Shown piece after piece: positions 10,934 through 28,813 of a DNA stretch of 33,760 nucleotides (position 1 is the stretch's first letter; each line of letters starts with the position of its first letter). Below the pieces are notes generated by a model. It was not told the origin of the DNA. It made no database searches and worked only from the letters and a program-made list of their open reading frames with translations. The position numbers were made by a program, and so were the translations under genes. Origin of the DNA: Treponema sp. (GTDB taxonomy: Bacteria > Spirochaetota > Spirochaetia > Treponematales > Breznakiellaceae); the NCBI GenBank assembly GCA_031260245.1, contig JAIRKH010000071.1:1-33760 (forward strand), read 5' to 3'.

Positions 10934-12457
10934 TTATTCGGCGCAGATTCTCTCTAGTTCAGCTTTGACTCCGTTTTTCCAAATACCTTCGAGATTGGCG
11001 GCGACCGCGTCCGTAAACCCCGGAATAACGGATAGATCTTCGCCCCACCAAGCCGCGGAAGACAACACGGCTTGGGCGACCGCGTAGGCTCTGTTCGGGT
11101 CGTCCGCACTCTTTTGGTAGAGCGCGGCGAACCGCGCCAAAATATCCTCGCCGTCCTTGATGGAGTACCTCTCTCCGCCGCGGAACCCAAGCGTCTCGCC
11201 GTCCACAAACTCGCCTTCGTAAAAGGCGACGAGCGCGGCAAGTGAAAACACGAGGCGACGCGGCAACTCTCCCTTCTTTTGCAGAAAGCCCTTGATAGAA
11301 GGCAGAACGCGGGTCTTGAACTTTGAAATCGAGTTCAGGGTGATGGACAGCCACCGGTGTTTGATATAGGGATTGGCGAAACGCTCGAGGACTTTGTCCG
11401 CGTAAGCGACGAGCTCGTCCGCGCCCCCGTTCATAGACGGTATTATCTCTTCAAAGATACCCTTTCTCATAAACGTGGACGTCAGCGGGTCCTTACAGCA
11501 GGCTTCCACTGTATCAAGCCCGGAGAGGAACGCGGCGGCCGCGGTCATAGTGTGTGCGCCGTTCAGGATTCGTACCTTGCGGGTGCGGTAGAAGCTCATG
11601 TCGTCCGTCCAGACGACGTTGAGCCCGGCGTCGACGAAGGGCAGCTCTTTGGCGTAGTCGCGCTTCGTTTCTATGACCCAGAGGTGAAAAACCTCCGCCG
11701 CGTCGAGCAGGTTATCCGTGTATCCGAGTTTCTTCCAGAGGGTTTCCGCTTCCTCGCGGGGATAACCCGGAACGACGCGGTCAACGAGGCTGTTGCAGAA
11801 GTCGCACGCTTCTAACCACGTGGAGAAAGCGTCCTCTAAATTCCATTCTTCGGCGTATCTCACGACTATTTCCCTTAACGTATCGCCGTTTTTGTCGATG
11901 AGTTCGCACGGGACGATTACAAGCGTCTTGCTTGGGTCTCCGTTGAAATACTTCCAACGCCGATACAGGAACGCGGCGACCTTACCCGGAAACGAACGTT
12001 GGGGCTTGTCGTCGAGCCTGTCCGCCGCGTCGTAGGCGATTCCCGCTTCCGTTGTATTGGAAACGACGAACCGTAGGTCCGGGTTCTCCGCCATCTTGAT
12101 GTATTCGTCGAACTGCGCGTAGACATTGACGCACCGACTTATAGACGTAACGAGACGGAACTCCTCGACGACTTCCCCGTCCGCTACCCCGCGCAGAACG
12201 GTCGTGTAAAGCCCGTTCTGCGCGTTTATAACGTCTCCCATACCCTTTTCCAAGGGCTGAACCACCGCGACGTTCCCGTTGAAATCGGTCTTTTCGTTGA
12301 GGATGTCAACCATCCAGTCCACAAAAGCCCGTAAGAAGGCGCCTTCGCCGAATTGAAGGACCCTTTCGGGTCTCTTTACAGGCTTCGCCTGTTGGACGAC
12401 TTCGCGTGGGACGTCGTCTGAAGGAGGCGTCCCCGTCTTAACGCTTTCGTTATTCAT
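10934..12457 (-). CDS. uxaB: Tagaturonate reductase (altronate oxidoreductase) with a repeat-derived N-terminus
   Basis: UxaB reduces D-tagaturonate to D-altronate with NADH in galacturonate catabolism. The 507-residue protein follows the mannitol dehydrogenase family closely. From residue 29 it reads RPERVLQFGEGAFLRAFVDW, close to the E. coli start as I recall it. SNTTEAGIAYDA, IIPSMNGGADELVAYADKVLERFANPYIKH and an RILNGAHTM motif follow. In E. coli the enzyme begins only about 16 residues before PERIIQFGEG; here the start is MNNESVKTGTPPSDDVPREV, adding about 12 residues. Residues 7-27 are encoded by a copy of the locus repeat (12379-12439). AAGGAGATAAT precedes the ATG, which is a strong start, so the extension is translated. 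uxaA follows. Confidence 0.95.
   Translation of the reverse strand: MNNESVKTGTPPSDDVPREVVQQAKPVKRPERVLQFGEGAFLRAFVDWMVDILNEKTDFNGNVAVVQPLEKGMGDVINAQNGLYTTVLRGVADGEVVEEFRLVTSISRCVNVYAQFDEYIKMAENPDLRFVVSNTTEAGIAYDAADRLDDKPQRSFPGKVAAFLYRRWKYFNGDPSKTLVIVPCELIDKNGDTLREIVVRYAEEWNLEDAFSTWLEACDFCNSLVDRVVPGYPREEAETLWKKLGYTDNLLDAAEVFHLWVIETKRDYAKELPFVDAGLNVVWTDDMSFYRTRKVRILNGAHTMTAAAAFLSGLDTVEACCKDPLTSTFMRKGIFEEIIPSMNGGADELVAYADKVLERFANPYIKHRWLSITLNSISKFKTRVLPSIKGFLQKKGELPRRLVFSLAALVAFYEGEFVDGETLGFRGGERYSIKDGEDILARFAALYQKSADDPNRAYAVAQAVLSSAAWWGEDLSVIPGFTDAVAANLEGIWKNGVKAELERICAE
12379..12439 (-). repeat. Locus repeat copy 1, in frame inside the uxaB N-terminus
   Basis: Read on the minus strand this copy runs from AAGACGGGGACGCC through the core GAAGTCGTCCAACAGGC to GAAGCCTG. 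It encodes KTGTPPSDDVPREVVQQAKP with no stop codon. It aligns with copies 4 (14192-14263) and 6 (15131-15197), sharing AAG-CGGGG at the left and GAAGTCGT--AACAG at the right. Confidence 0.75.
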
Positions 12458-12567
12458 ATTATCTCCTTGTTTAACAATATTGCATATCTCCTAATTTTTT
12501 AACCGTTCCGCCTGTTGGTCGGCAGTTATAAGCGCAACCGCCAAGTTGGGGCGGCGGCGCCCCCCCC

Positions 12568-12616
12568 TTCGGACAAGCCCTCGTGTGAAGTCATAAAACA
12601 GGCTGCGCTTGCAACC
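12568..12616 (+). repeat. Locus repeat copy 2, over the pectate lyase stop codon
   Basis: This copy is on the plus strand, opposite to the others. It runs from TTCGGACAAGCCCTCG through GAAGTCATAAAACAGGC to TGCGCTTGC. In the family's reading frame it would encode SDKPSCEVIKQAALA, comparable to SDDVPREVVQQAKPV in UxaB. The last seven codons and the stop of the pectate lyase gene are read from its opposite strand. Confidence 0.7.
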
Positions 12617-14135
12617 ATTTCGCGGTTACGCTTTTGTCCGCGCCCGCGTCCGCGGGAACGGCTGTGGGCAAGCCCGAAACCGCGCCCAAGTCGTAGGCGT
12701 AAGCCGGGGTCCAGGGCTTGGCGGTTGCGGCGAAATGCGCGGACGGCGCTACGGGAACGTTGTTGTCCGCCGCGAAGACTTTCGCGGGATACGCGGACGC
12801 GTCGTAGTAGTCGACGATTTTAGTACTGGATTTGAAGGTTTCTACGGCGAAGAAGTTGCTTTCCACGATGAATTCCGCGTTTCTACCGGGTCCAAGGCAA
12901 TATCCGTTGTTGCCGTCGACTCCTACGTCCTTCCAATAGTTGTTATAGATGTGCATAAGGGTTCCTCGTGTGCGGGGCGTGCGCTGGGTGGTTTGATGGA
13001 AGTAGTTGTGGTGCAGGGTTATTCGCCGCTCGTCCGCATTCAGGTACTTGGTCTCGTCGGAGCCGACGAGCATAACCTTGTCGTGGTTGGTGAATTCGCA
13101 CCACGAGACGGTGATGTCCCGCCCGTGTTTGATGTCGAAAGAACCGTCGTGGTTGTAGTTGCGAATCATGTCGTTGCAGGTTCCGTCCGTGAATGTACAG
13201 TGGTCTATCCAGACGCCGCTTGGTATAATATCCGCGCCCTCCTCCACGACCAAAGCGTCTATGCTCGCTTTGGAGCTTTCGTTGCCCGACTTCGACGTAT
13301 CTCTTTCCGTCGACCCGTGCGCGTCCCAGAACGTGAGGTTGCGGATGATGACGTTGGTTCTGCCGTTTATTCTCAATCCTCCGAATTTAACGCGCGCGTT
13401 GTCGACGCCTATGATGGTCTTATCATTCTCTATCTTAAAGGTAATATCGCTGTGTTTGCGGGCGAACGGCTCGGTCGCGTTAAATTCGTCGAAGTAGCTG
13501 TGGTCTGTGTCTGACACCTTGCCGTCCGAGAGGTCTACGTCCCCGCTAACGATGATAAAGGCGGGCGCCTTGCCGTTTATCGCGTCTGTAAAGGCTTTGC
13601 GCTTGTCGAGCGGGTTGGGGTAGGTCGCGTCGTCGATGAGAGCGAGAGTCGCGGGGTTTGTATAGAACATGCCCGCGCCGTCGTTGTACATATCCGCCCA
13701 GCCGTTTGTTACGGCTTTTTGTCCCTTGAGCAAGGCGAATATGTCCGCGGGGGACAGTTCCGCGTCCTCGTCTATGGGCGGCGTTACGGTTGCGTTCACG
13801 GTTACGGTAACCGCTCCGCTCTTGTCCGACCCGTCTACGGCGGTCGCGGTGATTTTCGCGATTCCAACGGCGAGCGCCTTTACCAAGCCGTCCTCGTCCA
13901 CGGTCGCGGTTTCCTCGCGACTCGACGACCAACGTACCGCCTTGTTCGCGGCGTTTGTCGGCTCGACGCTGACGGTAAACCGCTGCTCTTCGTTTTCAAA
14001 CAACGCGGCGTCGCCTTCGTTTATGGACACCGAAGACACAGCGACCCGCGTCGTCGTATGCGCGTCTACGAGACAGCCGACGACCAACGCACCGCATATA
14101 AGAGCGGCGCTAATTCCTTTACAAATCTGTTTCAT
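12591..14135 (-). CDS. Pectate lyase (PL1-type) lipoprotein with an Ig-like Big2 domain
   Basis: This secreted enzyme of 514 residues cleaves de-esterified pectin (polygalacturonate) by Ca2+-dependent beta-elimination. A lipoprotein signal ends at Cys21 (ALVVGC). A bacterial Ig-like group 2 domain spans about residues 30-115 and the parallel beta-helix lyase about 125-500. PL1 landmarks are GVWIDHCTFTDG (307-318), DGSFDIKHGRDITVSWCEF (330-348, Ca-binding Asp), NHDKVMLVGSDE (350-361) and the catalytic Arg region RTPRTR (385-390). GAGGAGAAAAGA precedes the ATG. The C-terminal LQAQPVL lies inside repeat copy 2, so the natural end may have been altered. It probably sits on the cell surface or faces the periplasm, and works after the methylesterase. 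Confidence 0.95.
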   Translation of the reverse strand: MKQICKGISAALICGALVVGCLVDAHTTTRVAVSSVSINEGDAALFENEEQRFTVSVEPTNAANKAVRWSSSREETATVDEDGLVKALAVGIAKITATAVDGSDKSGAVTVTVNATVTPPIDEDAELSPADIFALLKGQKAVTNGWADMYNDGAGMFYTNPATLALIDDATYPNPLDKRKAFTDAINGKAPAFIIVSGDVDLSDGKVSDTDHSYFDEFNATEPFARKHSDITFKIENDKTIIGVDNARVKFGGLRINGRTNVIIRNLTFWDAHGSTERDTSKSGNESSKASIDALVVEEGADIIPSGVWIDHCTFTDGTCNDMIRNYNHDGSFDIKHGRDITVSWCEFTNHDKVMLVGSDETKYLNADERRITLHHNYFHQTTQRTPRTRGTLMHIYNNYWKDVGVDGNNGYCLGPGRNAEFIVESNFFAVETFKSSTKIVDYYDASAYPAKVFAADNNVPVAPSAHFAATAKPWTPAYAYDLGAVSGLPTAVPADAGADKSVTAKWLQAQPVL

Positions 14136-14148
14136 TCTTTTCTCCTCA

Positions 14149-14191
14149 ACTTCTTATGGGGTCTTGTCCGAAGGAAACTCCGCTGACTCCG
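14149..14191 (-). repeat. Locus repeat copy 3, leader of the pectate lyase gene
   Basis: On the minus strand it reads CGGAGTCAGCGGAGTTTCC, then TTCGGACAAGACCCC and AAGAAG. It matches the left half of copy 4 (GTCAGCGGAG) and the TTCGGACAAG start of copy 2. It ends beside the pectate lyase ribosome-binding site and is a shortened copy in tandem with copy 4. Confidence 0.6.
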
Positions 14192-14263
14192 CAGTCGAAG
14201 GCTGTTTAACGACTTCGCACGGGGCGTTGCCTGAAAAGAGGCTCCGCTGACCCCGACTTGACG
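14192..14263 (-). repeat. Locus repeat copy 4, between acetylesterase and pectate lyase
   Basis: On the minus strand it reads CCGTCAAGTCGGGGTCAGCG, then GGAGCCTC, a variable middle, and the core GAAGTCGTTAAACAGCC. It is the closest relative of copy 6 upstream of the acetylesterase; both start CCGTCAAG-CGGGG and end GAAGTCGTTAAACAG. It fills most of the 177-bp gap together with copy 3. Confidence 0.75.
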
Positions 14264-14312
14264 GCTCAGCTTGCTTGCAAGCGGAGCCTACTTTAATATT
14301 ACAGACGTCTTA

Positions 14313-15077
14313 CTACTCACAGAACGCCAGACACCATGGCGGCGTCAAACGCCGAAGCAAGCAAAGCCTGTTCCATGAAACAAGAGGAAGTTCCGCGGAC
14401 CCCATGGCTTGAACCGCGAGTCCACATACGAGTCGCGCGCCTTTGGCGTTGAAGTGGGTATTGTCTACGTCGCTTTCGTCTTTCTTTACGGCGAAAAGCG
14501 CGGCCGTAGCGTCCGCGCCGCCTTGCGCAAAGAGGTCTGTAAACGCCTGCGCGGTCTTTTGCGTCAAGTCTATGAGCGGGACGCCGATTTGCGCGGACAG
14601 GTCCCTAACCGCGGCAGTGTAAGCGCCGTGCGAGTCGACGACGCTCCCGTCCTTGGCGCGCCTGCTCACGGGCGTTACGAGTACGGGGAGCGCGCCTTCT
14701 TCCCGCGAGGGAACGATGTATTTGTTGTAAAGAAACCACTTGAACGAGCCTTCGGCGTCTACGGACAGGCTTGCGTCGGTTCCGCGAGATGGGTCTTCCG
14801 TCTTTTCGTCGTTATGCCCGAATTGGATGAAGAGGTAATCGCCTGCGCGGAGTTCGTTCAACAGCTTCCGATAATTGGATTCTACGGTGAAGCTTTTACT
14901 GCTCCTGCCAGAGAGCGCGTAGTTGACGACCCGCGCGTTTGACGGCTCAAAGTAATCCTGCAAATAACGTCCCCAACCTGCGCGTTTGACCAAGTAGGCG
15001 GGGTCCGCCGCATAATCGCATACGGTAGAGTCTCCCACGAGAAATATCTTTATCGACAATGGGATATCCCCAGCCAC
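14313..15077 (-). CDS. Rhamnogalacturonan acetylesterase (CE12-like SGNH hydrolase), probably frameshifted at its 5' end
   Basis: This SGNH-fold esterase removes acetyl groups from rhamnogalacturonan, opening pectin to lyases. All four SGNH blocks are present: FLVGDSTV with Ser17, NYALSGRSSKSF with Gly57, FIQFGHND with Asn89, and DNTHFNAKGA with the catalytic Asp205 and His208. The longest frame opens at a GTG (15077) without a ribosome-binding site and lacks a signal peptide. A perfect signal peptide lies directly upstream in the next frame (15050-15151), so the gene seems to have lost a base near 15075-15100. The last 19 residues (NRLCLLRRLTPPWCLAFCE) look unrelated to the family and partly come from repeat copy 5. 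As it stands the product may be unexported. Confidence 0.85.
   Translation of the reverse strand: MAGDIPLSIKIFLVGDSTVCDYAADPAYLVKRAGWGRYLQDYFEPSNARVVNYALSGRSSKSFTVESNYRKLLNELRAGDYLFIQFGHNDEKTEDPSRGTDASLSVDAEGSFKWFLYNKYIVPSREEGALPVLVTPVSRRAKDGSVVDSHGAYTAAVRDLSAQIGVPLIDLTQKTAQAFTDLFAQGGADATAALFAVKKDESDVDNTHFNAKGARLVCGLAVQAMGSAELPLVSWNRLCLLRRLTPPWCLAFCE
14354..14404 (-). repeat. Locus repeat copy 5, 3' end of the acetylesterase gene
   Basis: On the minus strand it reads GGGGTCCGCGGAACTTCC, then CTCTTGTTTCATGGAACAGG and CTTTGCTTGC. The left part resembles GGGGTCAGCGGAGCCTC of copy 4, and AACAGGCTTTGCTTGC resembles AACAGGCTGCGCTTGC of copy 2. It is diverged and supplies part of the odd C-terminal tail of the esterase. 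Confidence 0.5.
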
Positions 15078-15151
15078 AGGGCGGACGCGAAACGTCCCCC
15101 GATAATAAGCATAATAAGGATGAGCAGGCTACGCCTGTTTAACGACTTCAT
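15050..15151 (-). pseudogene. Out-of-frame signal peptide of the acetylesterase
   Basis: A 33-codon frame from ATG 15151 reads MKSLNRRSLLILIMLIIGG, then RFASALWLGISHCR and a stop. The charged start, the hydrophobic LLILIMLIIGG core and the ASA cleavage site make a textbook type I signal peptide. The downstream esterase is in a frame that would be joined by restoring one base, for example in the five-G run (15096-15100) or in TGG at 15074-15076. The ATG and first codons lie in repeat copy 6. I infer this is the broken 5' end of the esterase gene. Confidence 0.65.
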
Positions 15152-15197
15152 AATTGACTGCATCTGACAACTCCTCTGTCCCCCGTCTTGACGGTTG
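15131..15197 (-). repeat. Locus repeat copy 6, start of the acetylesterase gene
   Basis: On the minus strand it reads CAACCGTCAAGACGGGG, then GACAGAGGAG, and ends GAAGTCGTTAAACAGGCGT. In the family frame it encodes GTEELSDAVNYEVVKQA and then a stop, comparable to GTPPSDDVPREVVQQA in UxaB. It directly adjoins the GC-rich hairpin repeat at 15219-15322. Confidence 0.75.
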
Positions 15198-15218
15198 CGC
15201 CTGCGCCGCGGCGCATGG

Positions 15219-15322
15219 CTGGGGGGGTAGCGGGAGACCCGCGTAAGCGAGTCTCCCGCGTAGGGGGGCGCGGCGAAAAGCGCTCCGACAGCCGACTACG
15301 CTCTGGAAAATGCGCCCCCCTA
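15219..15322 (-). repeat. GC-rich double-hairpin dispersed repeat, copy A
   Basis: Read on the minus strand it begins TAGGGGGGCGC and ends GGTCTCCCGCTACCCCCCCA. Two stem-loops are visible. The first pairs TAGGGGGGCGC with GCGCCCCCCTA; the second pairs GCGGGAGAC with GTCTCCCGC. A hand alignment with copy B (28532-28637, opposite strand) gives about 14 mismatches and four indel positions over about 106 columns. It lies in the 271-bp gap between the pectin methylesterase and acetylesterase genes and could stall or process the transcript. Confidence 0.85.
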
Positions 15323-28637: not shown

Positions 28638-28813
28638 ATTGCGGCGCAAGTCCGCGTCCAAGCAAGCGGAACCTCCAAGACGCCCCAAGCGCCGTTTCGC
28701 AGACACCGCTAGACGTTCGCGCTAGAGTCGTTGCCGAGACGCCCGCGCCGCTATGGTGTCAGACACCTTCACTAATACCAAAGTTTCTTTCTACATAAGA
28801 TACTTCAGAGGAT
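28638..28813. other. Remainder of the parA-purC intergenic region
   Basis: The gap between the parA-like stop and the purC start is about 350 bp; copy B and the purC promoter fill its purC-side half. The rest is GC-rich and non-coding as far as I can see. It contains short palindromic stretches, CGCTAGACGTTCGCGCTAG (28707-28725) and GGTGTCAGACACC. No gene, RNA or terminator stands out. Confidence 0.5.

Follow-up and report, generated by a model that had tools for sequence, protein, structure and literature searches.

Rickettsia palindromic elements (RPEs) are repeats of about 150 bp that carry a conserved peptide, and nearly half of them lie in ORFs (PMC10969869). REPs are known to give stop codons to adjoining ORFs (PMC3733652), and RAYTs have been described as single-copy (PMC3116915). 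In this study, we analysed a family of small repeats present in the pectin locus of a Treponema genome. The window, i.e., the whole stretch of 33,760 nucleotides that was analysed, is contig 28 of a 124-contig, 2.34-Mb genome (hereafter G000) rated ~94% complete. The core motif of the repeat is matched five times in the window, against 1.1 expected, and none of 100 shuffles reached five. A first-pass annotation had claimed at least six related copies and a weaker one. Four copies are well supported, being significant matches to a covariance model (14191-14292, 12500-12612, 15124-15205 and 12378-12467), and another is a tandem fragment, whereas the segment 18133-18157 and most of the segment 14354-14404 did not withstand analysis: the former aligns to native sequence of the related genome G011 and gives no covariance-model match, and the latter is mostly native esterase coding sequence (model score 9 bits, E = 0.14).

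The best full-length copy (14191-14292, reverse strand; 105.5 bits, E = 1.9e-29) is organized as a 5′ hairpin, a middle part, a GAAGTCGTTAAACA block and a 3′ hairpin. Directly 3′ of it lies a shortened tandem copy (14147-14190, reverse strand), which was called by eye from its similarity, with no separate covariance-model score, and which is absent in G011. The counterpart in G011 of the whole spacer holding 14191-14292 is about 24 nt. At the scale of the pectin locus, the gene order is unchanged in G011 and the window copies are missing, this genome being nearly free of the family.

The clearest site is the uxaB gene (10934-12457, reverse strand), which encodes a protein of mannitol dehydrogenase-like fold (Pfam PF01232 and PF08125). 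Relatives read GTTAAGACG|GTAAA at this site, and G000 has 54 additional bases between the two parts (12379-12432, reverse strand; model match 12378-12467, 40 bits), that is 18 in-frame codons adding the 18-residue sequence GTPPSDDVPREVVQQAKP without loss of host sequence. The exact empty site is found in the DNA of both G009 and G011, and the extension of UxaB, which had been noticed from its sequence, proved to be missing in all 11 relatives with a readable N-terminus (G009, G011 and nine others). The uxaB copy has no 5′ hairpin, and the 5′ junction of the insert falls in the native GTTAAGACG, which is similar to the element's own GTCAAGACGG. No target duplication beyond 1–2 nt is seen at uxaB and a possible AACC duplication is seen at the pectate lyase site, few sites keeping both flanks. 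The position of the uxaB junction in a short element-like stretch suggests, on the basis of few sites, that joining may occur by microhomology.

Two other window copies adjoin gene ends. The copy at 12500-12612 (forward strand, 53 bits; compared with G009 and G011) is antisense to the pectate lyase gene (12591-14135, reverse strand; PF00544) and lies at its 3′ end. As initially proposed, the stop codon of this gene is inside the copy, which supplies a new tail, QAQPVL, and the stop. The copy at 15124-15205 (reverse strand, 47 bits) lies at the start of the GDSL esterase gene (14313-15077, reverse strand; PF13472), whose native start differs in G011. The suggestion that this copy forms the start of the acetylesterase was correct in that an ATG of the element (15151) opens the native signal-peptide frame; however, this frame is broken about 65 nt further on. 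In the region 15070-15151, a small deletion relative to G011 puts the esterase body in a different phase from the signal-peptide frame, reflecting either a real frameshift or an assembly error. It is also worth mentioning that a different repeat, GGGGGGCGC...CGACTnCGyTTTGGAAAryGCGCCCCCC, adjoins several copies (window 15263-15322, L042, L105 and L112) and that a further recurrent motif, AAGCGTACCCTTYGGGTRTTTTAAAGCG, is found beside copies in two stretches of the genome G010 (L316 and L327).

The repeat unit is roughly 100 bases long, with sizes ranging from about 54 to 115 nt, and full-length copies from several species align across about 102 columns. An ungapped profile of 56 copies is sharply bounded at the 3′ end and fades out on the 5′ side. 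The full unit bears a different hairpin at each end: the 5′ hairpin is NGNAGGYTCCGCTTG...CAAGCGNARCC and the 3′ hairpin is CAGGC-nnn-GCCTG or CACCC-nnn-GGGTG, switching among copies. The stretch between the hairpins reads GTCAAGACGGGGwCAGCGG...CCYTTTCnnACAACRCCCGTTGTGAAGTCGTTAAA, and the middle part exists in two versions, GGGGACAGCGG... and the rarer GGGGACAGACAAGTTTACTAAC.... In young G010 copies, the element extends on its 5′ side to the GNAG-tagged hairpin and a further 10 nt or so. The terminal hairpins show compensatory change: 96% of cells are paired, both partners have changed in 8 of the 14 pairs, and the covariation score is 0.344 versus 0.155 for shuffled alignments and 0.04–0.10 for slid controls. 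A middle GGGG/CCCC helix proposed by single-sequence folds was discarded, having no covariation support, and the single-sequence folding energy of the element is only modestly below that of shuffles. Rfam searches of the window and of eight loci with copies gave no match above the curated score.

We then asked how the family is distributed. In G000, AAGTYRTTAAACAGGC with up to 2 mismatches has 63 matches, versus 9 for the reversed control. The covariance model confirmed that further copies exist elsewhere in this genome, with 87 matches genome-wide; it also returned 135 matches in G009 and at least 150 in G010, both from sister species, 18 in G002, 9 in G004, one each in G003, G006 and G011, and zero in the remaining members of the genus and in eight other genera. 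With a strict pattern applied to 79 genomes, the counts were 27 (G000), 52 (G009), 48 (G010), 4 (G002) and 3 (G004), the other 74 genomes having none. When one genome from each of 84,980 species was scanned for the pattern, 42 stretches of Treponema MAGs were retrieved and, outside the genus, only 4 scattered single-stretch matches; viral contigs scanned for the pattern gave no match. Copy-rich contigs hold 176 matches in 356 kb, and near-identical full-length copies are found in G010. As all these genomes are fragmented MAGs, repeat-rich sites may be misassembled. By the named matches of the species scan, the nearest relatives that bear the repeat are Treponema MAGs, which probably come from termite guts. 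No description of such a family in Treponema was found in the open-licence papers searched.

To follow the insertions, the sequence 3′ of the element was searched in G009 and G011 for 14 further copies, and counterparts were found for nearly all. These loci were picked mostly for a gene adjoining the 3′ end; the rate of gene-end copies was therefore taken from the separate counts given below. For the clearest copies (L006, L036, L011, L060 and L026, and L015 compared with G011), the homology of the relatives restarts at most 2 nt from the 3′ end of the element, and in two of these copies this is the case in both relatives. The homology restarts 5 to 26 nt past the 3′ end at L003, L013, L024 and L042, and overlaps the element by up to 11 nt at L005 and L028, as expected from diverged spacers. 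The element site in the aroC gene of G010 is likewise empty in relatives. Two insertions are common to G000 and G009 and absent in G011, hence some copies are older than that split. Taken together, the empty sites and the species-restricted bursts show that the repeat is mobile, and that the family spread recently through a few related treponemes. We consider it likely that these copies constitute a new family of small, non-autonomous, structured mobile repeats.

Is the encoded peptide important for this spread? A shared, protected peptide frame had been proposed from the window copies, and the wider sample does not support it: the EVVKQA frame contains stops in 14/82, 12/40 and 22/94 copies of three species (17–30%), and the other frames are open as often or more often. 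In the chorismate synthase (AroC) of G010, the net gain is 21 residues, most of them from the element, immediately ahead of the NNAGG motif; the native loop is replaced and not simply split, and the frame used differs from that used in uxaB. (Chorismate synthase has no match in G000 despite its 94% completeness, which may be a MAG gap.) The uxaB and aroC insertions are the only two clear internal in-frame insertions in about 300 copies examined. They are what an RPE-type repeat, with a peptide conserved for insertion into proteins, would produce; however, the use of two frames and the common stops in the proposed frame led us to reject selection on the peptide, and with internal insertions being so rare, we regard this explanation as extremely improbable.

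Copies are located in spacers or at gene ends and only rarely within a gene in frame. With a simple gene caller, on which the gene-end and read-in rates rest, a more frequent effect than internal insertion was seen: the frame of a facing gene continues into the 3′ hairpin at 19/141 G010 copies and 15/52 G000 copies (about 18%), the pectate lyase gene being one example, and gains a short tail and a stop, often HPSGV or QAxPV followed by the stop codon. In G010, the distance from the 3′ end of the element to a facing stop is no more than 30 nt in 37/65 cases, compared with 4/59 for the 5′ end. This asymmetry, together with the covariation of the hairpins, could be expected if selection maintained a functional RNA regulator or a terminator-like element at gene ends. 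However, the density of G010 copies is alike in convergent, unidirectional and divergent spacers with no orientation bias in the unidirectional ones, relatives have the same genes without the copies, and several copies are located in coding sequence; such a function is therefore quite unlikely to account for the family. Because REPs are already known to supply stop codons, the gene-end effect is not new in itself. In our view, the effects on proteins (the 18-aa UxaB insert, the short C-terminal tails and the start codon) arise incidentally from open frames and are not the cause of the spread.

Among copies, the 5′ end is more variable than the 3′ end. As a mobile repeat, the element would be moved in the form of a folded single strand, with one end of the moved unit defined by the 3′ hairpin, and the 5′ end might sometimes be resolved by short homology, as at uxaB and in the truncated tandem copies. 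We regard as doubtful the proposition that the repeat generally enters at short homology, always ends at a single 3′ hairpin with no target duplication, and in passing provides dozens of proteins per genome with the same short C-terminal tail. No dedicated transposase would be needed if DNA copying switched template into a copy at short homology and left it at the strong 3′ hairpin, which would yield 5′ junctions with microhomology and a 3′ end that is always the hairpin. The uxaB junction, with its GTTAAGACG/GTCAAGACGG match and its missing 5′ hairpin, agrees with this, as do the 5′-truncated tandem copies, which recurrently begin at the same points immediately behind a 3′ end (a tandem pattern common in G010), and the 45 of 143 G010 copies with a complete 3′ end that begin 20 nt or more inside the element. 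However, most of these G010 copies are full length (91/143 begin within 10 nt of the 5′ end), the occurrence in only a few species points to a specific factor, and microhomology is clear at only one two-sided site. Template switching thus seems to us a rather unlikely source of the family. A structured unit with a fixed 3′ end and a more variable 5′ end is also reminiscent of a SINE-like retroelement copied via RNA by a reverse transcriptase acting in trans; however, no RVT_1 domain was detected in the genome at E 0.001 by a search that was positive in control genomes, an absence that is not absolute in a genome about 94% complete, and we deem this origin very improbable. The GTTAAAC motif resembles an attC box, but an integron attC reading was set aside on general grounds, the copies being solitary and dispersed.

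For a mobile repeat of this kind, the most plausible agent, which we propose tentatively, would be a putative IS200/IS605-type (Y1, RAYT-like) transposase acting in trans. G000 has 28 Y1 transposase genes, although none could be tied to the family. The number of RAYT-like genes does not track that of the copies, with 38 genes for 18 copies in G002 and 13 genes for 135 copies in G009. RAYT-like genes are framed at fixed distances (about -137/+390) by GTGTCWGACAC, and the hairpin repeat family is found at variable distances from them; a RAYT as the direct owner of the family was rejected. Copies near RAYT-like genes mostly point outward, an orientation on which we do not rely since the distances vary and all these repeats share spacers. 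The framing repeat, GGTGTCWGACACC, is a second repeat with 95 exact sites in G000 (e.g., window 28755-28767, L090 and L087) and frames most of the 28 genes. RAYTs having been described as single-copy, it is unusual to see one that is present in several copies and framed by a palindrome of its own.

What is recorded here is a recent burst of a repeat in one treponeme genus, for which we describe empty sites, covariation of the hairpins and a fixed 3′ end. It adds one more group to the bacteria whose conserved enzymes receive small repeats in frame. Because copy numbers in sister species range from almost none, through about 10 and about 90, to over 150, the source of mobility is testable.

How does this family compare with described systems? 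The likeness to RPEs noted at first pass stands for the dispersed copies, their location at gene ends and the in-frame copy in uxaB, and fails for the protected peptide frame: as with RPEs, small repeats enter conserved genes in frame at sites empty in relatives (uxaB and G010 aroC), although this is rare here, and the treponeme family has no protected frame and few internal insertions. With REPs and REPINs, it shares short, high-copy hairpin repeats that lie in spacers, overlap gene ends, supply stops and are in some cases within genes (GTAG and CGTC repeats, PMC3733652; REPINs, PMC3116915), and Y1 transposases are present in the genome, as in REP/RAYT systems. In contrast to REPs, the treponeme unit is asymmetric, with a long conserved block flanked by two unlike terminal hairpins. 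Unlike in GTAG REPs, the tag position is not conserved, reading GTAG, GGAG, GCAG, ATAG or AGAG in young G010 copies, and the repeat that frames the RAYT-like genes is GTGTCWGACAC and not the family itself. Whereas REPINs are inverted pairs, the treponeme units are mostly single or in direct tandem (only one head-to-head pair among the first 56 copies), and their terminal hairpins differ in sequence. Like MITEs, the family is non-autonomous, short, present in high copy number and subject to recent bursts, but the ends of its consensus are not inverted repeats of each other. The family is therefore close to REPs and MITEs in its behaviour, and by the features tested it lies outside the REP, REPIN, MITE and RPE classes.
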